Source of the DNA: a virus
Reading direction: 5' to 3' (one strand)
IMG/VR virus record: IMGVR_UViG_3300029267_001495
Coordinates: 1 to 37,737 of that record
DNA length: 37,737 nucleotides
Part shown: piece by piece, positions 2,495-20,305 of the stretch
Numbering within the stretch: position 1 is the stretch's first letter
Layout: each line of letters starts with the position of its first letter
Notes under the pieces: generated by a model
The model's input: the letters and a program-made list of their open reading frames with translations, nothing else
The model's database searches: none
Told to the model about the DNA's origin: nothing
Translations under genes and position numbers: made by a program

Positions 2495-3598
2495 CTACGA
2501 ACTGAGAGTCTTCAGTGGTCGGCGCTTGCCTTCGATCGCCAGCTGACGCATCCGCTCTCGCGTCTCGGCCCGCTGTTCCAACTCGCGCTGCCGCTTCGCC
2601 AGCAGCTCGGGCGTCATGTCCTTGCGGGTGACGATCGTGTTGGCAGGCGGGATCGTGTTCGACGGAGGCACGCGGTAGGGATGACGACCACCGGCGATCC
2701 GGCCGCCGATGCCGCCGTACTCCTCGAGCGACTCTGAGAGCTTCTCGCGGGCCGCCACCGTGACGTAGCGGTTCCGGGCGGCCTTCGACAGCTTCTTGTA
2801 GAACCTCTTGGCCGCCTTGAGATCCCGGCGTTCTAGCGCGTCAGCGAGGAGGGCAAGGCGCGCGCGCTCCATCCCCTTGAGCTTCGCAAGCTCCCGACGG
2901 AGCAATTGCGCCGCGCCTTCCTTCCAGTCTCCGCCCACGTGGTAGGGAACATCCAGCGGCGCCGCCCCGCCGGTGAACATGCCCCAGGCGGCCTCGCCGA
3001 GCGACTCCTTCTTGCCCTTGGGCCACAGCTCACCCTTCTTGACCCAGCCCTTGAACTTGCCGTTGCCGTAGAACACCGGCTCGCCGCGCTTCTTCTTGAG
3101 GCCGTCGATCAGCTTGCTGATGGTCACGTCGTCCATCGCCGCGATCTCGTCGGCAGTCGGGCTTCTGAGCTTCTGCTGCTTGGCGAGGTGCTGGGCGTAG
3201 CTGATCTGCGAGCTGGACGCGGCCTTGCCCTCGTCGATCCGCTTGCCTTGCTGACGGCGCTTCTTGCTGGCCGCCTTCTTGCCGTGTCGGCGCGGATGCC
3301 CCCACGTCCCACTGAGCTTCTTGGACGCTGCCGCGCCCCCCTGCTTCGACTCGCTCAGATCCTTCCGCTTGAGCCGCTTGATGAAGCGTGGGACCTTGTC
3401 GCCCGGCGAGAGCCCTAGCACCGCCTTCACACGCGGACAGTCGTACCAGGCGTTCTGGCCACGCTTCTCCCAGGATGGCTTGTTCCGCCACGCGTCCCAC
3501 GCACGAGCGAGCGCCCGCTTCTCATCGGAGGAGAGAGCGGCGAAACCAGCTGCCGCCGTCGCGGCGGCCTCGCCTAGCACCCGCTCGTAGAGGCTCAC
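2495..3598 (-). CDS. Lys-rich probable virion/internal protein with C-terminal RRPLKTL tag
   Basis: 367 residues from a GTG overlapping the upstream stop (GTGA). I do not recognise the full protein. Visible parts: an N-terminal RVLGEA (cut-site-like LGE before A at residue 10), a basic Lys/Arg stretch (about 73-125), a helical segment at about 128-170 (QISYAQHLAKQQKL...ISKLIDGLKKK) that resembles the short DUF3072-type motif, KESLGEA (about 198-203), LSESLEE, and a C-terminal RRPLKTLSS. The last motif is shared with the N-termini of the 95- and 96-residue proteins at 10683 and 20015. Neighbours on both sides carry similar LxE motifs, so a processed head or scaffold role is my inference. Confidence 0.75.
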   Translation of the reverse strand: MSLYERVLGEAAATAAAGFAALSSDEKRALARAWDAWRNKPSWEKRGQNAWYDCPRVKAVLGLSPGDKVPRFIKRLKRKDLSESKQGGAAASKKLSGTWGHPRRHGKKAASKKRRQQGKRIDEGKAASSSQISYAQHLAKQQKLRSPTADEIAAMDDVTISKLIDGLKKKRGEPVFYGNGKFKGWVKKGELWPKGKKESLGEAAWGMFTGGAAPLDVPYHVGGDWKEGAAQLLRRELAKLKGMERARLALLADALERRDLKAAKRFYKKLSKAARNRYVTVAAREKLSESLEEYGGIGGRIAGGRHPYRVPPSNTIPPANTIVTRKDMTPELLAKRQRELEQRAETRERMRQLAIEGKRRPLKTLSS

Positions 3599-4098
3599 TG
3601 CACCACCGAGTATCCGGTCTTGAGGTTGTAGTCGAGCCGACCCTGCGCCTGGAGCTTCTTGAGCGCCTTGGCTGCCGCCCTCACATCGCTGCCGATTGCC
3701 TTGGCGACCTCGCGCAGCTTCGCGCCCTTCTTCTTGCGGAGCAGGTCGATGATCGCGCTCGTCTCGGGAGCGGTCGCCTCCTCGATCGGCTCTTCCTGTT
3801 CCTCGATCGACACCCGAGCTGCCCGCGCGATGTCCTCGAGTCGGGAGACGGCCGCCTGAGCGATCCGGTCGTCACCCTGATCGAGGTCCACGCTGACGGC
3901 CCGCGCGCCGATGACGAGCGCCTCGCCCAGCGTGGCGGGCGTATCGTCGCTCTCCATCCGACTGAGCACGTAGTCCAGTACGGCCGTTGCGGCCTCGTCG
4001 ACCTGCTCCTCGGTGAGTACAGGCGGACCCGGCCCCGGGTCGGGGTCGGCCTCCACGAGGAAGCCAGCGAGATCCTCGGCCACATCCTTCAGGCCCAC
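3595..4098 (-). CDS. Winged-helix-type protein with acidic N-terminal half
   Basis: 167 residues from a GTG at 4098 with GGGAGG five to six bases upstream. The N-terminal half is acidic and carries AGFLVEADPD (a possible LVE/A cleavage site at residue 16) and TLGEAL. The C-terminal 55 residues (SAIIDLLRKKKGAKLREVAK then AAAKALKKLQAQGRL and a YNLKTGYSV wing) look like a winged helix of the kind that reads DNA in transcriptional regulators. It lies between two large structural-type genes, so it may bind packaged DNA or be a regulator. The stop overlaps the next gene's GTG. Function is not assigned. Confidence 0.75.
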   Translation of the reverse strand: MGLKDVAEDLAGFLVEADPDPGPGPPVLTEEQVDEAATAVLDYVLSRMESDDTPATLGEALVIGARAVSVDLDQGDDRIAQAAVSRLEDIARAARVSIEEQEEPIEEATAPETSAIIDLLRKKKGAKLREVAKAIGSDVRAAAKALKKLQAQGRLDYNLKTGYSVVQ

Positions 4099-4114
4099 GG
4101 TAGCCTCCCGCGAG

Positions 4115-4675
4115 CTACGGCCGCTTGTCGCGCTTGATCAGATCGTCCGGGTACTCCATGCCCTCGGCGAAGAGGTCGAGGTCGCGCGCGCTCTTGGGCT
4201 CGCGCCGCTCGGTGCGGACGTCCACCTCCTCGCGGCCATCAGGCGTGTAGCCCGGACCCGACACGCCAGCGGTACTGCGCGTGGCCGCCGCCTTCGCCTC
4301 GGGATCAGCGGGAGTCGACGCAGGCCCGTGCACGCCCTTGCCCGGCCCCTTGTAGGGCTGGCGGAACCTGCTCTTGGACTTCCCGCCCTTCACGGGGATG
4401 TTGGCCTCGAGCTGGGCCAGCCGACGATCCATCCCGGTCAAGGTCGGATCGTCGGTCAGCATGGCCTCGGCGAACTGCACGTCGCTCGCGTCGCCGAACG
4501 ACCCGAAGTCGTCGAGGGCCATGCCCTTCTCGCGCAGCTCGTTGAACGACTCGCCGTACTCGGGGGTGGCACCGCGCGCGTGGGATTCCGCCTGCGGCTC
4601 GGGCTTCGGCTCGGGCTTCGGCGCGGGCTCCTCGTCCTCGCCCCGGAAGCGCCGGATCGCATCACTCAGGTTCAT
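4115..4675 (-). other. Possible internal translation start giving a 186-residue C-terminal product
   Basis: Within the 738-residue frame, an ATG at 4675 is preceded by GGAGG with five bases spacing. The peptide that would start there (MNLSDAIRRFRGEDEE) matches the true N-terminus of the neighbouring 92-residue protein (MTLTEAVRRFREMDEA). This suggests either an internal start making a separate short product or an ancient in-frame fusion of two genes. Confidence 0.4.
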
Positions 4676-6331
4676 GACATCCTCCGTGTCTTCGTACTTC
4701 TTCTTGCGCCTGCCCCGCTTTGCGCGCGGCGGGCGCTTCGTCTGCCAATTCGGGGACGGCATTCCGAACTGACGGGCCTTCGGGTCATCGGCATCCGGCG
4801 GCCCGGTGGTCTCATCAAGCGACTCGTCCACCTCGCCGGGCGTGTCGTCCTTCGGCTGGTCTTCCTTGTTGCGCTCGACCTTGGGCACCGGGTTCAGGTC
4901 GGTCTGGGACTGGCCAGAGACCGTGATTCCGCCCGTGCGCAGCGCGCGTAGACATCCGGCGAGTCGACGGGCGCGCGTAGGCTTGGCGCCCTTGATGACC
5001 TTCTTTCGGATCTCCTTCATGGCGCCGTCGATGTCACCGGCCTCCATCTCGGCCAGGTTCGCCCGGTCCTCCGCGCTCTCCTCCTTGTGCTTGGAGACCG
5101 CTTTGCGGAGGCGATCGTACATGGCCTTCTGCTTCTGGATGCCAAGCGGGCTGTGCTTGATGACCTGGAGAAGCTGACCGGCCTCGAACGCGATGGCCGC
5201 GTGATGCTCCTGTTTGGCCGTCCGCCGAATGAACTGGATCGCGGGCATGTTCCAGTTGCCCTGGTGCTTCCAGGTCTTGTCGATCTCAGCCAGCGCGTCC
5301 TTGTAGGAGACCTGATCCTTCTTGCCCAGGTAGGTGACCTTGGTGACCGCCTCGGCCAGCTCGGCCAGCTCGTCCTCGCGCAACGGCTTGATGTGCCCGC
5401 TCTTGGTGAACTGCTGCCACTGCTTGAGCGAGATGCCGAACTGATTGCTCGGCACGTAGATCGAGAGCGCCTTGCCCTTCTTCTTGCCCTTGGAACCGAG
5501 GCGCGTCATCAGGATGTTCTGCTTGGGCGAGGAGCTGTCCATCCAGACCTCCCACGGCCCGCTGATCACACCGTCGATGCCCTTGACAGTGTACCGCTCG
5601 CCCTTCCTGGGACCGGCGGCCTCGACCAGCTCCTCGTCCTCCTCGAGCTTGAACGGGACGCCCTCGTACTCCGGCTCGCGGGGGTCGCCCGGCCCAGCTG
5701 AGAACGAGACCGACTGGATCATCTCGCAGTCGAGCGCCTCCTCGACGATCGGGTGATCGTCCGAGCGGTGCTCGGCTAACGTCATCGGCTGGGGGAAGTA
5801 GTGGGAGGTCTCGCCCTCCATCAGCGGCCGGGGGCCGGTCGGGGCGTCGTCACCGAACCAGGGGCCGGAGCTGGCGCCGCGATCGAGCCCCAGGAGCATC
5901 CGCTCCTCGGGAGTCAGGTGGTCGTCCACGCCCTCGGTCTTGGGCGCGCGCTTGAGGCCCTTGAGCATCACGGCCATGTCGCCCCAACCGGCGTTGACGT
6001 CCCCGTCCTTGAAGGTGTAGAGGGAGATGCGATGGAGCCGGGCACCCTTCTTCGGCTTCCCCTCCATCGGTAGGAGCGTCACGGACGTCATCCCCGACCG
6101 CTTGCTGTGCGACCGGCGACCGACCTTCCACGGATGGAACTTGCCGTCCATCTTGGGGTGCCGCCCCATGATGCTGGTCATGGCAACGAGGAGCGTCTCC
6201 TTGGGCTTCAGCGAGGCGAAGATCCGATTCCACTCCGCCTGGCTGTCCTCGGTCAGCGGCTCGTTCAGCGAGCAGTCGGCGAACGGACCCGCCATCGCCA
6301 TGTGGAGCAGCTTGTCGATCGAATCGCTCAT
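4115..6331 (-). CDS. Large multidomain protein of unknown function, structural block
   Basis: 738 residues, ATG at 6331. No full-length family recognised. An N-terminal segment (about 83-106, SVTLLPMEGKPKKG then HRISLYTF) resembles residues 19-40 of the 713-residue protein encoded upstream, so the two probably share a domain. The middle has PFKLEEDEELVEAAGP (LVE/A at 237) and a globular region (about 240-460). The tail is charged and disordered: SLDETTG, a KRGRRKKK basic patch, and EPAPKPEPKPEP. MNLSDAIRRFRGEDEE begins at residue 553 and matches the start of the 92-residue protein at 6379. A 47-base gap upstream holds TAAGAT, a possible -10 box. Role in the virion is inferred from context only. 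Confidence 0.75.
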   Translation of the reverse strand: MSDSIDKLLHMAMAGPFADCSLNEPLTEDSQAEWNRIFASLKPKETLLVAMTSIMGRHPKMDGKFHPWKVGRRSHSKRSGMTSVTLLPMEGKPKKGARLHRISLYTFKDGDVNAGWGDMAVMLKGLKRAPKTEGVDDHLTPEERMLLGLDRGASSGPWFGDDAPTGPRPLMEGETSHYFPQPMTLAEHRSDDHPIVEEALDCEMIQSVSFSAGPGDPREPEYEGVPFKLEEDEELVEAAGPRKGERYTVKGIDGVISGPWEVWMDSSSPKQNILMTRLGSKGKKKGKALSIYVPSNQFGISLKQWQQFTKSGHIKPLREDELAELAEAVTKVTYLGKKDQVSYKDALAEIDKTWKHQGNWNMPAIQFIRRTAKQEHHAAIAFEAGQLLQVIKHSPLGIQKQKAMYDRLRKAVSKHKEESAEDRANLAEMEAGDIDGAMKEIRKKVIKGAKPTRARRLAGCLRALRTGGITVSGQSQTDLNPVPKVERNKEDQPKDDTPGEVDESLDETTGPPDADDPKARQFGMPSPNWQTKRPPRAKRGRRKKKYEDTEDVMNLSDAIRRFRGEDEEPAPKPEPKPEPQAESHARGATPEYGESFNELREKGMALDDFGSFGDASDVQFAEAMLTDDPTLTGMDRRLAQLEANIPVKGGKSKSRFRQPYKGPGKGVHGPASTPADPEAKAAATRSTAGVSGPGYTPDGREEVDVRTERREPKSARDLDLFAEGMEYPDDLIKRDKRP

Positions 6332-6378
6332 AGGTGGCCTCGGCTCAACATCTTACCCGCTCTCCAGCTGCGGGTCGA

Positions 6379-6657
6379 TCAACTTGGCGATGGACTCGTC
6401 ACCGAGCTGCGCCGCAGGATCGCGACTCCGCCGACCGGCGCGGGCACCTCCCACTCCTTGTCACGGCACTTGGGGTCGTAGCCCTTGCACTTGCTCCGTC
6501 GCTGGCGCTTCATGCGCCGCTTGCGCTCGCGCTCGATGACTGCCAGCCCGCGACGGCCGTAGAACGGGAGGCCGCCGGTCGTACGTGCGCCGATGTTGGC
6601 CGTGGTCGTGGCCTCATCCATCTCGCGGAACCGCCGGACCGCCTCGGTCAGCGTCAC
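6379..6657 (-). CDS. Small basic protein with LTEAVRRFREMDE N-terminal tag
   Basis: 92 residues from a GTG that overlaps the upstream stop (GTGA). The N-terminus MTLTEAVRRFREMDEATTTA matches an internal segment of the 738-residue protein and the C-terminus of the 503-residue protein (ISAAVAEFRAMED). MDE followed by A at residue 15 looks like a prohead-protease type site. The middle is very basic (IERERKRRMKRQRRSKCKG), with two cysteines (KCKGYDPKC), consistent with nucleic-acid contact. The tail is Ser/Pro rich. No family is recognised. Its position among structural-type genes and the shared tag suggest a packaged or scaffold-associated protein. Confidence 0.7.
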   Translation of the reverse strand: MTLTEAVRRFREMDEATTTANIGARTTGGLPFYGRRGLAVIERERKRRMKRQRRSKCKGYDPKCRDKEWEVPAPVGGVAILRRSSVTSPSPS

Positions 6658-8795
6658 TTGTTGAGCTTCCTGAGCGTCTGCGCCAGTCGTGCCTGCTGAC
6701 CAGTGCGGCCGGGCTTCTTCGCGGCCTTCTTCAGCTCATCCGCCGGGATCGTCCCCTTCTTGGTGCGCTTCTCGATCTTCTTCTTCAGCGCACCAGGACG
6801 CTTGATCGCGCCCGCGATCCACTTCTCCTCGCCTTCCTTCTGGATGCCCTTGCCCTTGTGGTAGGGCTTCTCGCTGTCGTCGGAGTCGCCGACGTGCGCC
6901 TTGAAGGCCGGGCTGTTGATGTTGCCCTTCATCTTCGGGTGCGTCTTGGGGTTCGGCCGCGCCTCGCGAAGCACGGCAGCGCTGACCGGCGCCTCCTCGG
7001 CCTTCTTGGCCGCGTTCTCGGCGTACTTCTTGAACGACGCCATGAACGCCTTGGGGTCGAGCGTTCCGGCCTCGAGCTGCTTGCGGATCATCGCCTCGTT
7101 CTTCTTCACGAACGCGGCGGCGACCGAACTGAGCCAGATGACCTTGCTCGAGGGGAGCTTCCCCTTCATCGGGCCGGTCATGATGTGCATCGCCAGGCCC
7201 TTCGCGAACTTGGTCGGATTGAACCCCTCGACCAGCTCCTCGTCTTCCTTCACGTCCGGGTGGAACGGGGCGTCACCCTTCGTGGCCGCCTTCTCCTTCG
7301 GCGACATCTTGGCGAACCTGGCCTTGTTCTCGGCCGATCGCTGCTTGCGCGTCTTCTCCTCGTCCAGCCCCTCGTGCTTCTTGGCCTTCTTGGCCTTCTT
7401 GGCTTGGGCCTCCCTGCCCTTCTTCATCCACTTGGAGAGGAAGTCACCGGCTCGAGCGGCTCGCTCGGGCGTGAAGATCTCGCCGAGGGACGGCGCCTGG
7501 CCGTATGAGTCACGCGACTCGTCGAGATCGTCGTCCTCCTTCACGTCAGGATGGAACGGCTTGTCGCCCTTGGTCGCGGCCTTCTGCTCCGGGGAGAGCT
7601 TGGCGAAGCGCTTCTTGTTCTCGATCGAGCGCTGCTTGCGGGTCTTCTCCTCCATCATCCGGCCGCCCCAACGAACCTCGCCGACTCTGGCGTTTCCCCA
7701 GAACGTCTCAGCCTGGTTGAACTCCTTGCGAGCATCAGCCCCTTTGCCGTGCATTCCCGTGTTGGGATCGCTGATCGAGGCGATGTAGTCGCGATACGCC
7801 TTCATCCCCTTCGCGGCGGCGTTCATGGCCTTCCAGTACCCTGGGAACTTCTTCTTGAGGACTGCCTTCTGCTTCTCGCTGAGTGACTTCAGCATCTTGG
7901 GCGCGTTCTTGACCGCCAACTGGTCGTCCTTGGGATGGAATGCGGTCTTTCCGCCCCATGCCCAATCCACGCCCGGATCACCCCACTTCGACTTCTTCGG
8001 CGCCTTCGGCTTGTAGAACTTGGCGTACTCCATCTCGTCGATCGGCTCACCGGCCTGCTGCACATCCGACTTGATCACGCCTTGGCGGATGGCTTCCTTC
8101 TTGTAGGTCTCCTGCTGCTCCTTGTTGAGCTTCTTGAAGTTCGACGGCTTCATCCAGTGCCGCAGAAAGCTCTTCTGCTTCGCCGGTGGATCGTGGTGGA
8201 AGCCGAACGGAAGCTGCCCGCGCTCGGCCTTCTCCAGATCGTCGAGGTTGTACTCGTCGATCCGCATCATGTCGCGGACGCTGAACGGCTCGAACGCTGA
8301 AACCAGCGGTCCGGTCGTGACGGATGAGAGATCGTCGGTGTCAGTCTCCGCCCACTGGTTGTAGGGGATCATGGAGCGCGGACGCTGCATGAACGCCGAG
8401 CCGAGCTGCATGTGCGCGCCCATCGCTGCGCCGCCCATCGTGGCCTCGTCGAGATCGCTCACGTCTTCCTCTCCCTCTTGGACGGCTACCCGCTCGAACG
8501 TCATCTTCTGGCCGTAGTCAGCCCGAATGATGGCGTTGAGGAACGCCTTCAACATGCCATCGTCGTAGCTGTGCACGATCACCGAGGATCGCTGCTTGTC
8601 CTTGATCTTGATCTTCCCACCGAACGGCTTCCGCTTGGAGGTACCGACGATCATCTTGATGTCAGATGGGCTCGTGGACGAGATGCGGATGTTGGAGAAC
8701 GAGCCCTTCTTCGCGCCCTTCTCGACGGGCAACAAGCTGATGTTCCTGGGCCAGCCCTTGTACCAGTCCTCCTGCTGCTGCTGTCGAATCGTCAC
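6654..8795 (-). CDS. Large Lys-rich protein with two 45-residue repeats, structural block
   Basis: 713 residues. I chose GTG at 8795 because GGAGG sits six bases upstream and the preceding gene stops at 8797-8799; an earlier GTG would overlap that gene. The N-terminus (RNISLLPVEKGAKKG then IRISS, about 18-40) resembles the 738-residue protein. DLDEATMGG (LDE/A at 117) follows. Two near-identical repeats lie at about 381-425 and 477-522, each running KTRKQRS-N-RFAK-SP--KAATKGD-PFHPDVKED and ending in DLDE or ELVE. Later VLREARP (about 607) and a Lys-rich tail. No catalytic motif seen. Probably an internal or scaffold-like head protein cut into pieces; this is inference. Confidence 0.75.
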   Translation of the reverse strand: MTIRQQQQEDWYKGWPRNISLLPVEKGAKKGSFSNIRISSTSPSDIKMIVGTSKRKPFGGKIKIKDKQRSSVIVHSYDDGMLKAFLNAIIRADYGQKMTFERVAVQEGEEDVSDLDEATMGGAAMGAHMQLGSAFMQRPRSMIPYNQWAETDTDDLSSVTTGPLVSAFEPFSVRDMMRIDEYNLDDLEKAERGQLPFGFHHDPPAKQKSFLRHWMKPSNFKKLNKEQQETYKKEAIRQGVIKSDVQQAGEPIDEMEYAKFYKPKAPKKSKWGDPGVDWAWGGKTAFHPKDDQLAVKNAPKMLKSLSEKQKAVLKKKFPGYWKAMNAAAKGMKAYRDYIASISDPNTGMHGKGADARKEFNQAETFWGNARVGEVRWGGRMMEEKTRKQRSIENKKRFAKLSPEQKAATKGDKPFHPDVKEDDDLDESRDSYGQAPSLGEIFTPERAARAGDFLSKWMKKGREAQAKKAKKAKKHEGLDEEKTRKQRSAENKARFAKMSPKEKAATKGDAPFHPDVKEDEELVEGFNPTKFAKGLAMHIMTGPMKGKLPSSKVIWLSSVAAAFVKKNEAMIRKQLEAGTLDPKAFMASFKKYAENAAKKAEEAPVSAAVLREARPNPKTHPKMKGNINSPAFKAHVGDSDDSEKPYHKGKGIQKEGEEKWIAGAIKRPGALKKKIEKRTKKGTIPADELKKAAKKPGRTGQQARLAQTLRKLNK
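7231..7365 (-). repeat. Copy B of a 45-residue coding repeat
   Basis: Encodes KTRKQRSAENKARFAKMSP and onward to PFHPDVKEDEELVE. Paired with copy A at about 7521-7653. The two copies differ at scattered codons, including synonymous changes, so the duplication is not recent. Each copy ends in an LxE motif. Confidence 0.75.
7521..7653 (-). repeat. Copy A of a 45-residue coding repeat
   Basis: Encodes KTRKQRSIENKKRFAKLSP and onward to PFHPDVKEDDDLDE within the 713-residue protein. It is nearer the N-terminus than copy B and separated from it by about 50 residues that include a Lys/Ala stretch (KKAKKAKKHEGLDE). Confidence 0.75.
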
Positions 8796-8796
8796 G

Positions 8797-10308
8797 TCAG
8801 TCCTCCATCGCGCGGAACTCGGCAACGGCCGCCGAGATGCCGGTCTCCTCGGTCTTCGGCGCCTTGTACTTGGGCTTGCCGGGCTCCGGCTTGTAGTGCG
8901 GCTTCGCGCCCTTCTTGTGCATGTACCAGGCGAGCGCCCACGGGTTGTCGATGTCCTTCTTGTCGCCGCTCTCGGGCTCGTCGGCGTACTTCTTGAGCTT
9001 CTTGCCGCCCTCGCCCTTCATCGCCTTGACGGTGCCGGACCAGCCGGGAGGAGAGACCTCGTCCAGCCCGACGCTCTCCGCCATCGCCTTGAGCTTCTTG
9101 GGATCCACGCCGGGGAACTGGCTCTTCCGGTAGCGGTGCTTGAGGAACTGCTCGGGCGGCCCCCAGTTCACGAACTTGGCGCTTGGCCCGCGCAGGTACC
9201 AGACCTTCCCGTCGTAGAGCCACAGCGACCCGAGCGCGTTGAGCTTGTCCTTGCTGATCTCCTTGCCGTGCTGGCCGATCTTGTCTTGCAGGCTCTCGGA
9301 GAGGGCGTCCTCGACCAGACTGCCAGCCTCCATCGCAGGACCAGCCGCGTTGCGGTGCACCCGGTCCTCGGACAGCTCGCCGGAGAGCGAGTCGGCCAGC
9401 GCGTGGGCGGCGCTGGGCGCGCGGAGCGCGGTTGCCTGGCAGATGTCCTCGATCTCGGACCAGTCCTCGTCCTCCTGCTTGATCCGGCCGCCCTTCTCGT
9501 CGTAGCCGCGCCTCTTGAGCCAGCGGATCGCGCCTCCCCGGCTCTTGAAGGTCTTGCTGGCCGAGTGGGTCAGGGCAGTGAACCCCGAGCCGTCGCTGTT
9601 CGGGTGGAGGCCGAGCTGGCGCTCGTGGGTTGACTCCTCCAGATGGTCCTCGGCCAGGTCAGCTGGGATCGCACCAGCCGAGCCGTAGGCACAGCCGGGC
9701 GCCCGTCGCCGCTGGACGTCCTCGACCGCGATGTTGAGGATGTCGCCCGCGACGAAGTGGCGGACGGCCTTCGCATCCTCGCCCGCGAAGCCGTACTGGC
9801 GCAGGTCGGGCACGCGGCCCATCCGCATTGCGACCTCGGCCACGGCGAACACGAGCGCAGGGTCGTAGCCCCGGTCCTCGGCAAACGCCTCGATCTCGGT
9901 CATGCGGCTCTTGAGCACCAGCTCGCGGGTGCCAGGCGCCATCAGCTTGGCGTCGCGAGAGAAGCCAGACGACATCGACTGGCCGTGCTTCGTCGAACCC
10001 TCGGCTAACGACCCCTGGTAGCCGGAGAACGCGCCGCGCGACAGGTCAACCAGGTTGTCGAAGAGCGCGTCGTCGGCCTCGGCCACGGCCGTCGCCTTCT
10101 TGCCGTGCATCTTCTTGACGGTACCGTCCGGGGAGACGGTCGCCAGCACCTTGAACCGCTTGGGATCGCTGGGCGGCCCCTCGGCGAACATCGGGCGGCC
10201 CATCGCCGGGCTCCAGTAGACGTACAGCTTCTTGCCGCTGATCTTCGCCCACTTCTTCGCGTTCTTGAGCATCTGCGGCGGGAGCGTGGTCATGGACGGC
10301 TCGCTCAT
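8797..10308 (-). CDS. Unknown 503-residue protein, structural block
   Basis: I chose ATG at 10308: GAGGAA lies four bases upstream and the start overlaps the previous stop as ATGA; a longer frame starting at 10476 would overlap that gene deeply. No full-length family recognised. There is a Lys-rich N-terminus, a helical region (about 130-200, RELVLKSRMTEIEAFAEDRG), a segment GRIKQEDEDW, acidic linkers SLVEDALSESL, GLDEVSPPGW, and a C-terminal NPWALAWYMHKKGAKPHYK (about 453-471), a short motif type seen in mobile-element proteins. The end TGISAAVAEFRAMED matches the tag of the 92-residue protein next to it. Likely a virion or morphogenesis protein by context only. Confidence 0.7.
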   Translation of the reverse strand: MSEPSMTTLPPQMLKNAKKWAKISGKKLYVYWSPAMGRPMFAEGPPSDPKRFKVLATVSPDGTVKKMHGKKATAVAEADDALFDNLVDLSRGAFSGYQGSLAEGSTKHGQSMSSGFSRDAKLMAPGTRELVLKSRMTEIEAFAEDRGYDPALVFAVAEVAMRMGRVPDLRQYGFAGEDAKAVRHFVAGDILNIAVEDVQRRRAPGCAYGSAGAIPADLAEDHLEESTHERQLGLHPNSDGSGFTALTHSASKTFKSRGGAIRWLKRRGYDEKGGRIKQEDEDWSEIEDICQATALRAPSAAHALADSLSGELSEDRVHRNAAGPAMEAGSLVEDALSESLQDKIGQHGKEISKDKLNALGSLWLYDGKVWYLRGPSAKFVNWGPPEQFLKHRYRKSQFPGVDPKKLKAMAESVGLDEVSPPGWSGTVKAMKGEGGKKLKKYADEPESGDKKDIDNPWALAWYMHKKGAKPHYKPEPGKPKYKAPKTEETGISAAVAEFRAMED

Positions 10309-10646
10309 GGGATTCCTCGTCTCGCTCGATCGGGCGGGTTCTGGAACACGATCCGGCGGATCGAGATCGACGGATCGACGGAGGTGAGGGCGTTGCTCCC
10401 CTGGGTGCGCTCGCCCTCGGAGCGAAAACGGAACTTCACGCGGTTCTCGTCGGGGCGAACGATGGAACGCTGCCATACCTCCACATCGGGGAGAGCCTCG
10501 CGGATGGCTAACGAGAGCTGATCGACCGGGCCGGGCGCGAAGAACGGGTCGTTGCGAGAGTACTCGACCACCATCGCATACGGGTAAAGCTCCGGGCAGT
10601 CCGCAACGGACCGACCCGGAGCCAGGTTGTCAGACAGATAGCCCAC
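10305..10646 (-). CDS. Small unknown protein (113 residues)
   Basis: GTG start at 10646 with GGAGG eight bases upstream. The sequence (MGYLSDNLAPGRSVADCPEL, then YPYAMVVEYSRNDPFF, and VKFRFRSEGERTQGSNALTS) predicts a compact alpha/beta fold with several strands, like small head-tail connector or tail-completion proteins, but I do not recognise a family. It precedes the 503-residue gene with an ATGA overlap. A 36-base gap separates it from the tagged 95-residue gene. Assignment to the virion block rests on position. Confidence 0.65.
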   Translation of the reverse strand: MGYLSDNLAPGRSVADCPELYPYAMVVEYSRNDPFFAPGPVDQLSLAIREALPDVEVWQRSIVRPDENRVKFRFRSEGERTQGSNALTSVDPSISIRRIVFQNPPDRARRGIP

Positions 10647-10682
10647 TAGCGCGACCTCCAGACGCGGTTGGGAGGAGCGGCG

Positions 10683-10970
10683 CTACTCCTTCCGCACGGG
10701 GATCGGCTGGCGCGGCGACGGGGTCTTCCCGGTGCGGAGCTGGCGCGCCTTGACGGGGAACGCGGGCGCAGTCCCGATCGGCGACTTCGGCATCGGCCGA
10801 TAGGCGCTGTTGGGAGTGCCCAGCTTGGTGGGCGGCGCCTTGTCACCGTAGTCGGTCGTCGCGGCGGTCGTGACCTTCTTGCCGCCACCGGCCTCGTCGA
10901 GGGTCTTGAGCGGGCGACGCGTGAGGGTCACGCCCTCATCGATGCCAGCCAGCTTATCGAAGTTGCTCAT
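10683..10970 (-). CDS. Small basic Pro-rich protein with TRRPLKTLDE tag
   Basis: 95 residues. ATG at 10970 is preferred because GGAGGAAGCG precedes it; two further in-frame ATGs lie upstream, at 10982 and 10985. The N-terminus reads MSNFDKLAGIDEGV then TLTRRPLKTLDEAGGG, containing IDE and LDE/A, both resembling prohead-protease cleavage sites, and the RRPLKTL motif shared with the proteins at 2495 and 20015. The rest is disordered, Pro, Lys and Thr rich (KARQLRTGKTPSPRQPIPVR). It probably acts as a packaged or scaffold-linked peptide; function unproved. Confidence 0.65.
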   Translation of the reverse strand: MSNFDKLAGIDEGVTLTRRPLKTLDEAGGGKKVTTAATTDYGDKAPPTKLGTPNSAYRPMPKSPIGTAPAFPVKARQLRTGKTPSPRQPIPVRKE

Positions 10971-12765: not shown

Positions 12766-13502
12766 CAGAAGAGACTCCTTCCTGTCTGCTCGTAGTGCTC
12801 CTTCGCGATCTGGTACTTGGCGCGCTCCAGCGCCTCCTCTAGCGAAGCAGCCTTGATCGATGTGGGCTCCGAGAACATCTCATCCCGGCCGGATGCCTGG
12901 TTGATGTCTCGCAGGAAACCCTCGGGAACGAACGTGTAGCGGGTCTCCCAGAAGTGCGCATCCGCCTCGGAACCACCAAAACTGTCGACAGCCAGCCCGC
13001 TCTGGTCGGACTTGACGGCCACAGCACCGGCGGGCGTCCACCCGTCCTCGGTCAGCACGCTCCATCGGACGTAGTCGAACGCCGAGAGCTGGGAGGGCTC
13101 GGGCGGCGCGGGCCTGGCCGCCAGGTCAGCGAAGACCTCCTTGGCCGCTTCCAAGACCTCATCCTCGACATCATCGTAAACGTCGTGCTCCCTGTCCCAC
13201 AGCTCGATGTCCTCGGGCGATTCGAGCTTCCGCAACCGCCAGGTGGTCACAGGCCAGTCGATGGCCTCGGTCACGAGCGCTCCGCCGTTGGTCGACATCA
13301 CCTCGAATGCGCTGAAGCCGTATGACCGGCACGGCTCGCCGGACCCGGCGGTTGGGCTCGCGAGCACCACGACATCGCGCCTTTTGACGAGGATATCGAA
13401 CACGTTGCCGAGCAACTCATCCTCCCGCCCGATCTCCGGGTACGCGCGGATCAGGGAGAACTTGCCCGTGTGCAGCAGCTCGGGAAGATCGGCCAGCTTC
13501 AT
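12765..13502 (-). CDS. Unknown 245-residue protein next to the giant gene
   Basis: ATG at 13502 overlaps the giant gene's stop (ATGA). Sequence is acidic and mixed alpha/beta, with RAYPEIGREDELLGNVFDIL, a long acidic helix (DDVEDEVLEAAKEVFADLAA) and a C-terminal LEEALERAKYQIAKEHYEQT. I do not recognise a family. No signal peptide or membrane segment. The tight overlap with the 2086-residue gene suggests co-production, for example as a partner, chaperone or antidote, but nothing in the sequence proves this. Confidence 0.65.
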   Translation of the reverse strand: MKLADLPELLHTGKFSLIRAYPEIGREDELLGNVFDILVKRRDVVVLASPTAGSGEPCRSYGFSAFEVMSTNGGALVTEAIDWPVTTWRLRKLESPEDIELWDREHDVYDDVEDEVLEAAKEVFADLAARPAPPEPSQLSAFDYVRWSVLTEDGWTPAGAVAVKSDQSGLAVDSFGGSEADAHFWETRYTFVPEGFLRDINQASGRDEMFSEPTSIKAASLEEALERAKYQIAKEHYEQTGRSLF

Positions 13503-16500
13503 GCGGTCGCCCAGTCCTTCGCGTCAGCGCTCTTGTCGAGAAGCTTGTTCACCATGCTCTTGGTGATGCTCTTCTTGATGACCTGCTTGCACGGCCTCTT
13601 CGGCATCCCGATCTTCTTGATCCCAGCCTCGGCCAGCGCGGCGCACAGCTTCCCCGGCTCATCGTCCTTGTAGAACATCGCGTACTCGAAGACGTCCAGT
13701 CCACCCTCGACCATCAGCTCCGCCGTCGAACTGTGCGCACCGAGGATCTCCACCAGCGTCGCCTCAGCGAGCGTCTTGTGACGGTAGCCACTCTTCTTCG
13801 AGCCGAACGTGTCGCCAGCGGCCGAGAAGTTGTTGGTTCGGAGCAGGATGGCCGGGTGAACCACCATGCGGACCGGGTGCTGCGTCTTGACGTTCCCCTT
13901 CTGGTGGAGCCGGTCCGTCTCCCGGTTGTAGAGGAAGGCGGCCATGCCTCCACCGGAGGCCAGGTCTCCGCTCTCTGACGCGCCGAGCTGCTTCTCGATC
14001 CCGCTCAGGTGCCTGTCGCGCGTGGACAGGAACATGCCCTGAAGGATCTTGGACTTCCGCGCCGCGCCGGAGTGCTGAGTGAATACCTGACGGCCCGCCT
14101 TCATCATGTGGACCATCTCTTCGTCGGTGAAGTCCGGTCGGCGATGCGAGACCTGACCACCAGAGTGGGCCGCGATCGGCTGGTAGTAGGGGTTCGGCAC
14201 CGGACCACCGTCCGGCCCCTCTTTCATGATGACCTTACCGTGAGAGCCTGGCACGGTCTTGGGGCGCCCGTAATCGTCCAGCTCCGGGGCATGGCGAGGA
14301 TCGTAACCGAGGTGGCTCTTGAGCTTCTTCAGCCAGAAGTCGGTCCGCTCCTTCCTGGTACCACCGGACGGTTCGACCACGTGCCACCGGGCGTCGTCGG
14401 TTGCGGCGGTTCCCGAGGCCCCCTCGACCCCGAGCAGCCACGCCATCTTGCGCACGTAGTTCAGCTCATGGTCCTCGGCCGACGCCGGTCGCGCGTCGAT
14501 ACCCAAGACCTCGAACGCCTTCTTGAGCATCGCCTTGTTCTGCTCGGTTGTTGATCCCTTTGGGAATTGGACGAACGTCGTGCCGTCGAGCCCGGTGTGC
14601 TTGCCCGACTTCCCAGAAGACTGGGTACCGGGGGAGTAGACGATCTTGAACCGGCTGTCCTTCTCGCCGGTGGCCACGGCACCCAGCTGAGACACGACGT
14701 CGGTCAGGTCGATCTCCCACGACGCCTGGTGGTTGCCGGGCGCGCCGTACCACTTAGTCCACGATCCATCCCAGTCCGCGCCCATCGAAGCGGTCTTGTT
14801 GTCCGCCGCGTGGTGCTTCGCGTTCCCGGGTTGCATCACACCGGCCATCTTCTTCGCGATAGTAAGTGTTGATGTCGGACCCTGCTCCTCCTCGAATTTC
14901 TTCATGGCCGTCTGCCAGTTGGCGAGGGCCTTCTCGTGATCCGCCTTGATCTTCTCGACCTGCTTGTCGTGCGCCACCTTGGCATCCGCGACGGCCTTCT
15001 TGTGGGCCGCTTCGACGTTGGCCTTCGCAGCCTCCTGGGCGGCCTTCTGCTCCTCGGTCGGCTCGAACGGCTTGATGAGCCGCTCCTCCTCAGGAACAGT
15101 GGCGGGGTCGGCGAACGTGAACCCGTCCGGTCCCCCCTCGGCTCCGAACTTGAGCAGCTCCTTCTCGTAGTGGGCACCGGCCGCCGCGACGATCGGATCG
15201 GCATCGGTCTTCATCTTCCGGCTGGCTTCGAGACCGCGCACCCAGTACTTCGAGCCCTTCGGCGGAGACAGCTTTCCATCGCGCCACTTGTTGACGTACT
15301 TCTCGATCTTCGTCAGGCGATCCCCGGCCAGACCCTTGAGCGCAATGCCGGTGAAATTGTGCGGGTCGTCGCCGGTCAGAGCGGTAGTCGCCAGGGATTC
15401 CGGCGACTGACTGAACGACGGGACCGGCGGCTCCTTGAACGTCGGAATCGCGGGGTCGGCGGGCTTGGGCGGGGGCTGAGGGCCGGTTCCGCCGAAACCC
15501 GGGAGACGCGCCTCGAGCGTCGCGCGCGCCGGACCATCCAGCATGAACTGGGCGATCGGTACCTCCCCCAGCTGACGGAATGTCACCGCGCCGCCCTTGA
15601 TCGCGTCGCCGCCGACGCTCATGTCGTAGCCCTTGACGCCCCACTTGGCGATCGTCTCCGACGTCGGCATATGCGACGACTCGGGCAGCTTCGACTCGTC
15701 CCAGCCGGGGGCCTCGGCACCGGCCGCGATCTCCTCGGCAGACGGCGACATCTTGTCGGCCTGCTTGTCGGTGATCGCGCCGCCACCGGCTGCGAACCTG
15801 TCCAGACCGAGCTGCTCGCGGACCTCCGCCTCGATCTCTGGCAGCGGGCGCGTGTCCCCGTGCGCGGCAAGCGCCTGAGCACGTTTCTTCGCCAGCATCG
15901 AGAACAGGTCGGCGACCTGCTTGCGGATCGTCTTGCGCCGCTGCTGCATCCCATCGATGAAGCCCTCGACGGTCCGGTCCTTCGGGTTGTGCGAGTATCG
16001 CGCGAGCCGCTGCTCGCCGTCGCGCGACTTCGCCGCGTCCGCGCCCTCCGCATACGGCCGCCACATCTTGTCGTAGACGTCGTCCGGGATACCCTCGGCG
16101 CGCTGGATCATCTTCTCGAACGCCGGATCCGTCAGCGCCAGGAGAGGAATCTCGGTCTTGTCGGGACCCAGGTCAGCGCCAGCCGCCCAGTCCATCAGCA
16201 TCCGCTTCGGCCAGCCCTTGTTGGACTCGAGCGTAGCCTTGCTGTCCTTGTTGGCGATCTTGCCGGTAGACCAGTCCCAGTGGGAGAGCAGGGTCCCGCC
16301 AGAGTCGAAGAACTTGCAGCTCTGCCCGTGGTCGATCCCGGTGACCTGGTCGTTCTCGTCGAACGTGTAGTTGCCACCGTGGTCGTCCTTATCGTCGACC
16401 AGCCAGTTGCTCACGAGCGCGAGCTGGAGACCTTGCGCCAGTCGCTTTCGCTCGTCCTCGGGAGAACCGGCCATGCCCGATCCCGGAAGACCCAGCCAGG

Positions 16501-19500
16501 GCTTGCTGTGATGGCCGTACCGGCGGCGGAGGTTCTTGGTGACGCGGAAGAACTGCATGAAGCCGGTCTTGCCGCCGCGCGACATGACGTAGCCGTCCGT
16601 GCCGACACCGCCCAAGCCGAGAAGAGCCTGAGTCCGGTTGGCTGCCGCCTCGCCGAGCGCCCTGTAGCCGTCGTGCTTGAAGAGGAACTGGGCCGGAGCC
16701 TTGCCAGCTCCGGTGTGCTGCTTGCCGTCGAGAGTCGCCGACAAGAACTTCTTGGTGCTCCCCTCGGAACCGCCGCTGTCGTCAAGATCCGAGCTGGAGC
16801 TGGTCCACCCCTTGCCGATGGCAGGCGCCATCGTCGTACCGGCCACGGGACCAAGACCGGCGTACTCGTCCAGGTCCGGCTTGCTCATGCCGAACAGCTC
16901 GACCACGGACAGCGAGCTTCCGTGGACCTCGCCACCTGGTCCGGCCACCGCTTCCAGTTCGACCGGAGCCGACGCGACCGCTTCGCATTTGGAGATCAGC
17001 TCGTTGAAGTACTGCTTCTGCTTCTTGTTCTCGAACGGCCCGCCGTAGTAGCCGCCGCCCTTCTTCTTCTGGTGGGTCTCCTGAAGGAAGCACTCGCTGA
17101 TCATCGACTGGAGCGCGTTGAGCTGGGACGTGGTCAGCGCTTGCGCGATAGCTTCATCCGGGAGCGCCTTGTAGGTCTGGTAGGACATCCAGTCGGAGTG
17201 CTTGATCCCGGTAAGACCCTTCTTGAGTGTCTCCAGCACGAGCGGCTTGCCGATCGCGAGCTTGGTCCCGACCGCGAGGTGCGCATCCTTGAACTGCTTG
17301 GCGATGGTCCCGGCCACCCCGCCCAGCTGACTCTTGAGCTTCCCGGTTTTCGAGAACGGCGCGCCGCTCCCGATAGCCGATGCGACCAGCGTGGCAAGCA
17401 GCTTCTTCTGCTCTCCGGTCAGGTGATGCGCCTTGGAGATCTTCGTGACCTTCGTCTTGCCCGAGACGGTCGGCAGAGCTGGTGTCGTTGGGAGCGGCTT
17501 CGGCTCGGTATCGCCAGTCTCGGTCGCGTTGATCGAGATGCTGGCTGCGCCAAGCTCCTCCTCCGAGGAGGTATCGATCGTCGCCTTCGCGCTCTTCGCG
17601 AGGAGCGCATCGACGATCGCGTTCGTGTCCCCATCGAGATGATCGGCGGCCCACGCCTTGACCTTCGCGTGGAGCGCGGTACCGCTGGGGATGACGCCCG
17701 GCGACAGGAACTGCGGGTCGGCCATCACCTCATCAGTGAAGGCGTCGATCTCCTCCTTCGATGCCAGATTCTTGTGCTCCTGGTCCCACTTCTCGCTCCA
17801 AGGGGGCCAGGGAACATCACCGACCCATACCGTGAAGTGCTTGTCGGTGAGCGCCTTGATCGCCTCGGGCCAGCCCCCCGCCTTGGTAACCCCCGGACTG
17901 GGGAGCGGGCTGAAGAGACTCGAGATCGAGGAGATCGCAACCTCCTTGCTCGGCTTCGCCTTATGCTCGCCGTACATCCAGTCCCAGTTGTCCTGAACGA
18001 TCTTGGCGATCTTCTCGGGGCTCCACCTGCTCGAGACGACACCGATCGCCTTTGTCTTGATGAGACCTTCGAGCGGCGTGCTTTTGACCTTCGGAATGTG
18101 GTACTCGCTCATCAGCGCGATGAACGGCTTCTCGCCGAACTGATCAATGTGCGAGATGACGGCCTCGGGCTGGAAGGGGACGATGTCGTGGCCGGGGATG
18201 TCCTTCAGGTGCTTCTCGATCGCCTTCAGGAAGCCCGGCTCGTCGGCCTTGGCCGCAACCTTGTCGGCAACCTCCTTCATGCTGGCCGAATCGAGGTGCG
18301 CGATCTCGGCCTGCTGGAGCGCGCCCACGACGCTCTGCCCCTTGTCGGACGCCTTCTGCGCCACGGCCAGGATCGCCTGCTGCTTGTCTGCCGGAAGCGC
18401 GCCAAACGCCTTGTTCGTGTTCGCGTCGATGGTGGCAGCCGACAGTGTCATCGCAGCCGCAGAGGAGATCCCCAGGCCGTCAGCCGAGAGCTGCTGCTTG
18501 ATGAGAGTAGCGACATCCGGCACCTGCGGCACACCGGCAACGACGAACGCCTTCTTGATCGCCAGTGACTTCGCCTTGGCCTTGATCTTGGCCTGGTCTT
18601 CCGGTGTATAGGCGTTGTAGGGCTTCGGAACCGAGTACCACTTCTCGACCGCCTGGTCGACGAAGGTCTTCGCCACCTTCAGATTGAGCCGCTTGTCGCC
18701 GAGCGCGGCAACGCTAGCCGCTCGTAGCGCCTTGATGGTCGCGATCTTCTTGAACGTCCCGCCCGCAGCAACGTCCGCCTTCATCTGATCTGAGACAGCC
18801 TTGAACGCCGCCGAGACCAGCTTGGTCGCCTCCTCGATGTCGAGATCATCGAGCGATTTGACCGTGGCCTCATCCCTGACAGCGTAGTACAGCGCGCTCG
18901 CGTGCTGCTCGGCCACGGACACGCTCAGGGTTCCGGCCGGGGGCGGGATGACTCCCGCCTTCTCGAACACCTCCCCAGGCGTCCACTGGAAGTTTCCCTT
19001 GCTGGTGGCGGTGAGGAAAGCGGTCTTGAGATCGGCCTTGAGCTTGGCTGTTTCAGAGGCCGACAGGTCATCGACCGACTTCGGTCCAGCCACGACCGGC
19101 TCGGTCGCGGGCTCGAGCGATGGCTCAGGCGCGAGGGCCGTCATCACCGCATCGGTCTTTGCTTTCTCCTTCTCAGTCTCGAAACACGAGATAGGGTCGA
19201 ACTCGTTGCCGTCCGGCCCGAGCAGTTTGCTCTTGCCGTAGTTGTAGGAGATGCCGAGCATCGGCCCAGGCTTGAAGTCCTCGTTCCCGTGGTTGGCCAG
19301 GTGATCCTGGCCGTGGCTCGACGCACTACCGCCGAAATGCAGCCACGCCTCGATCTTCGCGATGGTCTCGTCCACGTGGTCCGTGGGCTTGCCCTTGGCG
19401 ATGAGGTTGGCCCGCGTCTCCTTCTCCTTCGCCAGGTTCTCCTTCGCCATCACCTCCAGGTTCTTCCACCTGTTGAGGGAGAACTCCAGGTCGGCCTCTC

Positions 19501-19759: not shown

Positions 19760-19766
19760 GCTGCCC

Positions 19767-20018
19767 CTACACGTGCGACTTGCGGTACTTCGGCGTGCCC
19801 CCCGTTCGGAGCGACCGGCGGACAGGCTTACCCTCAGTAAGGGTGAGCATTCTACGAAACGCATCCTCATGGATCTCGTAGGTAAAGAACCGGCCCTTGC
19901 ACTCGTCGCACCGGCGCTCGCGCTTCTTCAGGGTGCCGAACTCGAACATGCCCTCATCGATCGGGCGCGTCGTCTTCGTCACCTTCGAGCCGTGGTGCTT
20001 GCAACGAGGGCATCTCAT
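19767..20018 (-). CDS. NrdR-like zinc-ribbon protein without ATP-cone
   Basis: 83 residues. MRCPRCKHHGSKVTKTTR, then KKRERRCDECKGRFFTYE match the N-terminal zinc ribbon of NrdR, the repressor of ribonucleotide reductase genes: C3, C6, C37, C40 and the RFxTYE motif. The ATP-cone that follows in NrdR (another 100 residues) is absent, replaced by a short basic tail. It therefore could bind DNA but not sense dATP as NrdR does. It overlaps the upstream gene as ATGA and precedes the giant gene. nrdJ is about 18 kb away. It could regulate phage or host genes, or be a generic zinc ribbon. Confidence 0.75.
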   Translation of the reverse strand: MRCPRCKHHGSKVTKTTRPIDEGMFEFGTLKKRERRCDECKGRFFTYEIHEDAFRRMLTLTEGKPVRRSLRTGGTPKYRKSHV

Positions 20019-20305
20019 CGACGGCGGAGCCTGCCCGCGCCGACGCGCTTCTCGGGCGCGACCCGCTTCTTGCCGGAGGTGTCAGCTGGGTGGAGCCGAC
20101 GCTTGTCCTGCGACTGAGGGATCCGCTTGTGGTAGTTCTCCCGCTCCTTGCGGTTGTAGCCAGCTCGGTTGAACCGCCTGGAGGCAAACTTGTCCACGAG
20201 CCGTCGAACTCGGTTGGTCAGACGGTCGGCCTTGTGGGGCTCGCGGCCCGTCGCGACCTCGCTCAGGGTCTTGAGCGGCCTACGAGTCAGCCGAGAATGA
20301 TCCAC
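20015..20305 (-). CDS. Small very basic protein with TRRPLKTLSE N-terminal tag
   Basis: 96 residues from GTG at 20305, overlapping the terminase gene's end by 19 bases. The N-terminus MDHSRLTRRPLKTLSEVATG contains the motif shared with the proteins at 10683 and 2495, with LSE/V at residue 16 as a possible cleavage point. The rest is extremely basic (RVRRLVDKFASRRFNRAGYN, KKRVAPEKRVGAGRLRRR), so the mature form would bind DNA or RNA strongly. A DNA-condensing internal head protein is one reading. No family recognised. Confidence 0.65.
   Translation of the reverse strand: MDHSRLTRRPLKTLSEVATGREPHKADRLTNRVRRLVDKFASRRFNRAGYNRKERENYHKRIPQSQDKRRLHPADTSGKKRVAPEKRVGAGRLRRR

Follow-up and report, generated by a model that had tools for sequence, protein, structure and literature searches.

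The 37,737-nucleotide stretch of viral DNA analyzed here (the window; IMG/VR record IMGVR_UViG_3300029267_001495) carries, between positions 2495 and 10970, a run of genes for seven neighboring proteins of 367, 167, 738, 92, 713, 503, and 95 amino acids (aa) that are rich in the tripeptide [LI]xE. This 37.7-kb window is a letter-for-letter part, in reverse complement, of a 275,101-bp IMG/VR record (G001, positions 45335 to 83071) that has a 144-bp direct repeat at its ends, as expected of a complete genome. Our own gene caller found 403 genes on G001, and one open reading frame (ORF), at 93662, was added by hand, so that 404 were analyzed. We compared these with a second strain (strain 2, records G003 and G006), which has about 83.5% DNA identity to G001 and counterparts of all seven LxE-rich proteins. 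Of ten related records searched for the 367-aa and 738-aa proteins, only G003 gave a match to each, the other nine contigs possibly being fragments. The phage seems to be a giant, or jumbo, T4-like phage, and we consider it likely that the seven proteins are cargo polyproteins that its own head protease cuts apart.

We counted the motif against 2000 composition shuffles of the seven proteins (2675 aa in total). The count of [LI]xE is 46 where 20.9 are expected and that of [LM]xEA is 11 where 2.2 are expected, and none of the 2000 shuffles reached either count, an outcome that bears out the preliminary description of this DNA, which had proposed such a comparison. Changing the spacing removes the signal (observed/expected: LE 9/13.9, LxxE 12/13.8, LxxxE 16/14.0, LxxxxE 14/14.0), as does changing the residues (ExL 14/14.0, LxD 13/11.9, LxK 19/19.0). 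The excess is specific to the L-x-E spacing and is not due to chance. Ala follows 11 of the 46 [LI]xE motifs, compared to a background of 10.9%. If acidic, Leu-containing linkers simply held LxE by virtue of their composition, a mild excess might be found everywhere, and the remaining proteins of the genome do have [LI]xE at 1.2 times expectation (848 versus 712) and [LM]xEA at 80 versus 59. However, the shuffles, the flat neighboring spacings, and a 2086-aa protein of the same gene run with no excess of [LI]xE (12 versus 15 expected) make this explanation exceedingly improbable; the shuffle and spacing controls refute it for the seven proteins jointly, with less certainty for single proteins. 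The 2086-aa protein, read from a later start within a 2123-aa ORF (window 13499-19870), has a 32% relative in G013, and the ORF had no Pfam or PHROG match at an E value of ≤0.01.

All nine LxE/A or MxE/A sites that had been listed for these proteins are present in the sequence, at residues 10 and 202 of the 367-aa protein, 16 and 59 of the 167-aa protein, 237 of the 738-aa protein, 117 and 611 of the 713-aa protein, 26 of the 95-aa protein, and 15 of the 92-aa protein. Two more bring the total of [LM]xEA to 11: the 92-aa protein has LTE/A at residue 5, and the 738-aa protein has LAE/A at residue 327. The accompanying statement that five sites lie within the first 27 residues is correct for all 11 (residues 5, 10, 15, 16, and 26) but not for the nine listed, of which four do so. 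Likewise, the view of these sites as propeptide borders describes some of them, which are N-terminal, but many lie at module borders within long chains, so that "polyprotein" fits better than "propeptide." The genes and principal sites are collected in the table below. One ORF (8797-10476) is better read as the 503-aa chain (8797-10308) plus a separate gene at 10305-10646, whose 113-aa product is 94.7% identical in strain 2.

Table. Genes and predicted cleavage sites in the window (a slash marks the predicted cut; residues are numbered within each protein)
Feature	Position	Strand	Remarks
367-aa protein	2495..3598	-	N-terminal putative targeting tag; LxE at 83, 123, 202, 289, 293; C-terminal RRPLKTL; 7 [LI]xE
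LSE/SLEE/ double site, 367-aa protein	2720..2740	-	Extra module of ~124 residues here in strain 2
LGE/A, residues 200-202 of 367-aa protein	2993..3001	-	LDE/A in strain 2
Tag A, VSLYERVLGE (GTG start)	3569..3598	-	Cut expected after E10, before A11; register of T4 MKTYQEFIAE/A
167-aa protein	3595..4098	-	LxE at 16, 30, 59, 100, 107, 130
738-aa chain	4115..6331	-	14 [LI]xE (15 counting MxE); modules swapped in strain 2
LAE/, residue 428 of 738-aa chain	5048..5056	-	Strain 2 homology resumes at L[AS]E/MEAGD
LVE/A, residue 237 of 738-aa chain	5621..5629	-	Inside stretch swapped in strain 2
92-aa protein	6379..6657	-	LTE/A at 5, MDE/A at 15; remainder basic
713-aa chain	6654..8795	-	GTG start, uncertain; 9 [LI]xE; partly repeated module KTRKQRS..ENK
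LRE/A, residue 611 of 713-aa chain	6963..6971	-	58 residues more in strain 2, LRE on both sides
LVE/G, residue 523 of 713-aa chain	7227..7235	-	End of repeat module lost in strain 2
LDE/A, residue 117 of 713-aa chain	8445..8453	-	[LM]xEA site
503-aa chain	8797..10308	-	DUF1391-like segment (Pfam PF07151, E value 1.4e-12, on longer reading); 7 [LI]xE
LDE/, residue 417 of 503-aa chain	9058..9066	-	After swapped stretch; clear homology resumes at L[DS]E/VSPPGW
LAE/, residue 103 of 503-aa chain	10000..10008	-	76 residues more in strain 2; LAE and LVE at ends
95-aa protein	10683..10970	-	Looser tag MSNFDKLAGIDE/, then RRPLKTLDE/A
96-aa protein	20015..20305	-	N-terminal RRPLKTLSE (second recurrent motif)
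RRPLKT proteins	10683-10970, 2495-3598, 20015-20305; G001 22501, 104725, 179839, 185194		

The comparison with strain 2 provided 32 alignable LxE sites in the seven proteins. The first residue is kept as L, I, or M in all 32 and E in 28, while the middle residue is the same in 18 (56%). In control motifs of these proteins with K, D, A, R, or Q in place of E ([LI]xK and so on), the middle residue is kept in 66 of 75 cases (Fisher P = 0.0006), and in LxE motifs of other proteins it is kept in 79% of 555 (Fisher P = 0.007); the counts for these tests were rebuilt from rounded fractions. Only this drift of the middle residue sets LxE apart from the controls. The sites appear to behave as protease sites would, with L and E staying in place as the residue between them changes.

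Four of the chains differ between G001 and strain 2 by the insertion, loss, or exchange of blocks as long as 222 residues, giving nine junctions. For example, SLAE/GSTKHG in the 503-aa chain corresponds to LAE/...SLVE/GSTKHG in strain 2, with 76 additional residues, and VLRE/ARPN in the 713-aa chain corresponds to LRE/...VLRE/ARPN, with 58. In the 367-aa protein, LSE/SLEE/YGGI becomes LAE/...LTE/YGGI, with 127 residues between the edges compared to 3. When the edges of the changed blocks were set by alignment alone (9 junctions, 36 edges), 20 of 36 lay within 6 residues of an [LI]xE, compared to 6.4 expected, a value reached in none of 5000 random placements. Control motifs were not enriched at these edges (observed/expected: [LI]xK 4/4.7, [LI]xD 1/2.5, [LI]xA 1/4.0, [LI]E 2/2.6, [LI]xxE 1/2.9). 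Because the edges are not independent, we repeated the test per junction: six of nine junctions have at least two edges at a site, compared to a mean of 1.6 by chance (17 of 10,000 placements).

Such coincidence of junctions and motifs could also arise if LxE were a linker or recombination signature, with exchange taking place at short shared sequences that happen to encode it, and the mild excess of LxE at block edges in other proteins, given below, is in keeping with this. Selection on DNA identity, however, is not expected to let the middle residue drift while L and E stay, nor do the copies of an N-terminal peptide tag, described next, share their codons, and the protease encoded in the genome is of a family in which the T4 enzyme is specific for LxE. 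We therefore regard recombination at LxE-encoding DNA as quite improbable.

Peptides common to several proteins of the genome led us to this tag, at start codons. The pattern MSL[YF][DE]R[VLIMC] is present at the N terminus of 8 of the 404 proteins, compared to 0.0002 expected from residue frequencies, and a looser pattern, drawn partly from the hits, is present in 12 (0.003 expected), one of which is the less certain ORF added by hand at 93662. In 11 of these 12 proteins an [LIM]xE ends at residues 9 to 17, and in 4 it ends at residue 10; in the remaining tagged protein, 148804, no [LIM]xE precedes residue 32. The codons of the tag differ between copies, showing that the peptide itself is selected. 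The 367-aa protein begins MSLYERVLGE/A, and T4 ipII and ipIII (NC_000866) begin MKTYQEFIAE/A, so that they share a register with an aromatic residue at position 4, a hydrophobic residue at 7, I or L at 8, E at 10, and A at 11. In T4 IPIII, positions 4 and 7 matter for targeting and positions 8 and 10 for processing (PMC9026906). By analogy, the tag would direct proteins into the head, and together with the sites it suggests that the seven proteins are head proteins.

The tag is also found in strain 2, G008, G009, G013, and G014, on proteins of which some are related and others are not; G010 and G011 yielded no convincing copy when searched with the same pattern. At the DNA level, one contig was found with a tight pattern for tag A; relaxing the pattern gave five stretches, distributed over G001, G009, and two further contigs that have sequence in common with this group. 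Seven proteins have a second motif, RRPLK[T], near their N- or C-terminal end, and in three of them it runs into LxE. We also considered RRPLKTL and tag A as DNA elements overlapping start codons and rejected this, as the codons differ between copies.

Since the window lies wholly inside G001 and G001 encodes a Peptidase_S77 protein, the prohead protease that had been predicted outside the window exists. The head module of G001 (187810-196195) encodes a portal protein (gene start 187810), two unnamed proteins, the second of them very acidic, the protease (191916), and the capsid protein (194762), with the protease between the portal and major capsid genes. The portal is of the T4 gp20 type (Portal_T4, E value 4.9e-51) and the capsid protein of the Gp23 type (E value 3.4e-54). 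The protease is of the T4 gp21 type (PF03420, 37.1 bits versus a cut-off of 27) and also matches the PHROG head maturation protease phrog_207 (E value 1.9e-23). A search for PF03420 in the window record alone gave no match; the control search was equally empty, and this absence was not used.

At G001 191916-194747 (L022:11916-14747), a Hint/LAGLIDADG intein interrupts the protease directly after the motif VDHPGDGK, so head maturation would depend on protein splicing. The motif GMSSRG, which we take to be the Ser motif of the protease, was found in 10 of 16 relatives' loci, the other six not being found by this pattern, and VDHPGDG, presumably the His motif, in 9 of these 10, the tenth being near a contig end. 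Of the nine loci with both motifs readable, five have the intein spacing, some of these being from the same strain, and four are intein free; L035, L037, L038, and L040 carry intein-free protease homologues. Strain 2 has intein-like insertions of more than 340 residues in the counterparts of G001 187810 (portal), 81916, 33684, 40880, and 208921, at two places in 81916, which by eye is a ribonucleotide reductase; 208921 is a tagged kinase, and G001 has no insertion at any of these places.

We also compared the capsid protein among 16 relatives that are 69 to 100% identical (L031 and L032 match G001, and several others are near-duplicates). Its most variable part is the N-terminal one, up to RL[NTS]E/ETRAL, after which the sequence hardly changes. 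All 16 relatives retain this L and E, with N, T, or S in the middle position. RL[NTS]E/E looks as a prohead-protease site with a free P2 position should look, and L/I-X-E is the T4 cleavage motif (PMC9026906). Together, the motif excess and the conservation pattern support cutting after [LI]xE by the phage protease. A search with the capsid protein in bacterial and archaeal genomes, which reaches close relatives only, gave 18 candidate stretches, none of which was confirmed.

Domains of tagged and chained proteins recur in other arrangements within the group. A 2H phosphoesterase stands behind ..APLRE/ in a 1750-aa protein of G001 and behind ..LDVLDE/ in a 1377-aa protein of G009, and it is the first domain after the tag MSLFDRVV (GTG start) in a G008 protein of 663 aa. 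In G001, the sequence that follows MSHFDKLAGLTE/ (208607) has a match inside a tagged G008 protein, where it follows ..ALTE/. For tagged protein 150585, the central domain recurs after ..SALTE/ in a G009 chain of 429 aa, in which a tag-like motif is present both at the start (MGRFDEMSGLVE/A) and internally (SRFEKLAGLTE/A). The final domain of 92715 stands alone with a tag in L035 (MSLHDRVVLQE/) and comes after ..WLGE/ in strain 2. In G013, a 409-aa protein joins one module of the 503-aa chain to the final module of the 713-aa chain. Within the 503-aa chain, the central domain starts about 10 residues after LxE in G001, strain 2, G010, and G011 and after MxE in G013, and the sequence before this site differs in G010, G011, and G013.

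Few of the modules have recognizable relatives. Among the window chains, only DUF1391 in the 503-aa chain is above the Pfam cut-off, and most tagged proteins searched against Pfam had no match. The C terminus of the 167-aa protein has weak matches to MarR-type and other phage families (best PHROG match phrog_142, E value 2.7e-4). Elsewhere in the group, a zeta-toxin/AAA_33-like kinase, 2H phosphoesterases, a UvrD-like helicase, and a C39-like peptidase are among the proteins that are tagged or part of a chain. The C39-like domain begins at residue 17 of a G013 protein (L123:12993-13835; Pfam E value 1.7e-9), behind the tag MSLFDRLLE (GTG start). The 1750-aa protein (G001 170537; L021:10537-15789) combines a UvrD/GajB-like helicase with the 2H phosphoesterase and has the tag-like TLFERVVGVLDE inside; it also has a weak zincin match (E value 0.012, 15.4 bits versus a cut-off of 25.6) and, by eye, a winged helix. 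PADLOC hits on this protein are matches to a GajB-type helicase, which we do not take as evidence of a defense system, and seven other proteins sent to PADLOC gave no hits. The modules may be used by the phage on arrival in the cell.

In the strongest alternative, the chains would belong to the prohead core or scaffold, as do T4 gp22, gp67, and gp68; the sites would then serve for their destruction, and the pieces would leave the head. Cleavage at this motif does reduce the T4 core proteins to many fragments (PMC9026906), the chains carry charge and are in part of low complexity, and family searches of the head module named no scaffold. On the other hand, many of the stretches between sites are 40 to 140 aa long and several are net positive, although short inter-site peptides are also present, and in relatives, related domains are found as single proteins with a tag. 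A better scaffold candidate is the acidic 416-aa protein encoded next to the protease, which has 14 [LI]xE compared to 8.1 expected. In the AlphaFold model of the 503-aa chain, the better regions (residues ~10 to 78 and 116 to 193) flank site 103, which falls between them in a low-confidence stretch. The size of the modules, the way they are exchanged, and their occurrence as tagged single domains thus argue against a core or scaffold role, which we consider unlikely.

Our proposal is instead that internal head cargo is made from these seven proteins as precursors. Some would start with a T4-like capsid-targeting tag, and in the longer ones small modules, many of them basic, would be linked to one another through [LI]xE sites. 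The chains would enter the prohead via the tag where it is present and perhaps by coassembly otherwise. The gp21/S77 prohead protease, made after its intein splices out, would then cut after LxE, removing tags and freeing modules, which would stay with the packed DNA and probably be injected along with it. Because the joints would be cutting sites, modules could be gained, lost, or exchanged there without harm to their neighbors. Packaging, cutting, release, and injection are what we infer from the sequence patterns, which are themselves observed. The earlier idea of a processed internal-protein system gains support from the shuffle count and from the gp21/S77 protease outside the window.

Several observations weigh against this interpretation. 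Retention of the whole motif between strains is no higher for LxE (28 of 32) than for LxR in the same proteins (17 of 19). At two of the nine junctions (the second in each of the 503-aa and 713-aa chains), all edges are more than 6 residues from an [LI]xE, the nearest being at 7, and the third junction of the 738-aa chain fits at a single edge. In other proteins (36 junctions and 144 edges, leaving aside five junctions that are intein-like and five from further tagged or LxE-rich proteins), 28 of 144 edges are near LxE compared to 17.9 expected (32 of 5000 placements), and five of the junctions left aside have 7 of 20 edges near it compared to 2.5. At the block edges of the chains, [VA]xE is raised as well (12 of 36 versus 4.2). 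Tag A is on only two of the seven proteins (the 367-aa protein and, in a looser form, the 95-aa protein), and the 503-, 713-, and 738-aa chains have no clear tag. Among the relocated domains, the nearest E behind the tag of the G008 2H phosphoesterase is in VLE, not [LI]xE; the strain 2 copy of the 2H border reads RTE; and the relocated domains of 92715 and 150585 have no [LI]xE directly upstream in G001. The AlphaFold models are also poor, with a mean predicted local distance difference test score (pLDDT) of 51 for the 367-aa protein (2 sequences) and 48 for the 503-aa protein (5 sequences). In the former, all seven [LI]xE lie in stretches with a pLDDT below 50, which total 177 of 367 residues. 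A PDB fold search gave no match at an E value of ≤0.001, and the models of both proteins are too weak to indicate function.

The component parts of the proposed system are known. In T4, the gp21 protease, the L/I-X-E motif, and capsid-targeting sequences have been described (PMC9026906), and G001 resembles T4 in its S77 protease, gp20 portal, and gp23 capsid protein. As in T4 IPI to IPIII and Alt, the 367-aa protein has a ten-residue N-terminal tag ending in LxE/A, in the IPII/IPIII register. However, the T4 internal proteins are short and have a terminal propeptide, Alt being cut at both ends (PMC9026906), whereas four chains here have 7 to 14 [LI]xE each, many of them at the borders of exchangeable modules, and only 4 of the 12 tagged proteins have the site at residue 10. 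The ejection proteins of phiKZ and SPN3US, which are cut by gp175/gp245, offer another parallel, in that a jumbo phage with a gp21-related protease processes many internal proteins at a short motif ending in E. SPN3US is known for long propeptides and multi-site propeptide cutting (PMC5694885, PMC10052503), but 13 of 14 mapped sites there remove N-terminal propeptides, the last lies in the protease itself, and the motif is AxE (PMC10052503); the parts of that source consulted describe no cutting between retained modules.

Polyvalent proteins (Iyer et al. 2017) likewise hold disparate domains in one chain that is predicted to be injected and then separated, but their release is ascribed to an embedded zincin-like peptidase (PMC5512222) rather than, as proposed here, to the head protease and LxE sites. 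The 1750-aa protein of G001 resembles polyvalent proteins in its helicase, its 2H phosphoesterase, and, weakly, its zincin match; the combination of several known effector-type domains with an embedded zincin was not found in the window chains. In the literature searched, in which subscription journals are thinly covered so that absence from print is not established, we found no description of chains of exchangeable modules bordered by head-protease sites, which are apparently new.

Finally, a broader view, for which we see even chances, is that the phage has a cargo platform: effectors and DNA-binding domains would be made as polyproteins with prohead-protease joints, the head would serve as the processing chamber, and the arsenal would evolve at the joints or behind the tag. 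The cargo could then include possible counter-defense or takeover enzymes such as the 2H phosphoesterase, the zeta-toxin/AAA_33-like kinase, and the C39-like peptidase. If this is true, the tag and the LxE joints would amount to a sequence rule that lists what such a jumbo phage packs and probably injects, a listing that otherwise takes mass spectrometry of virions.

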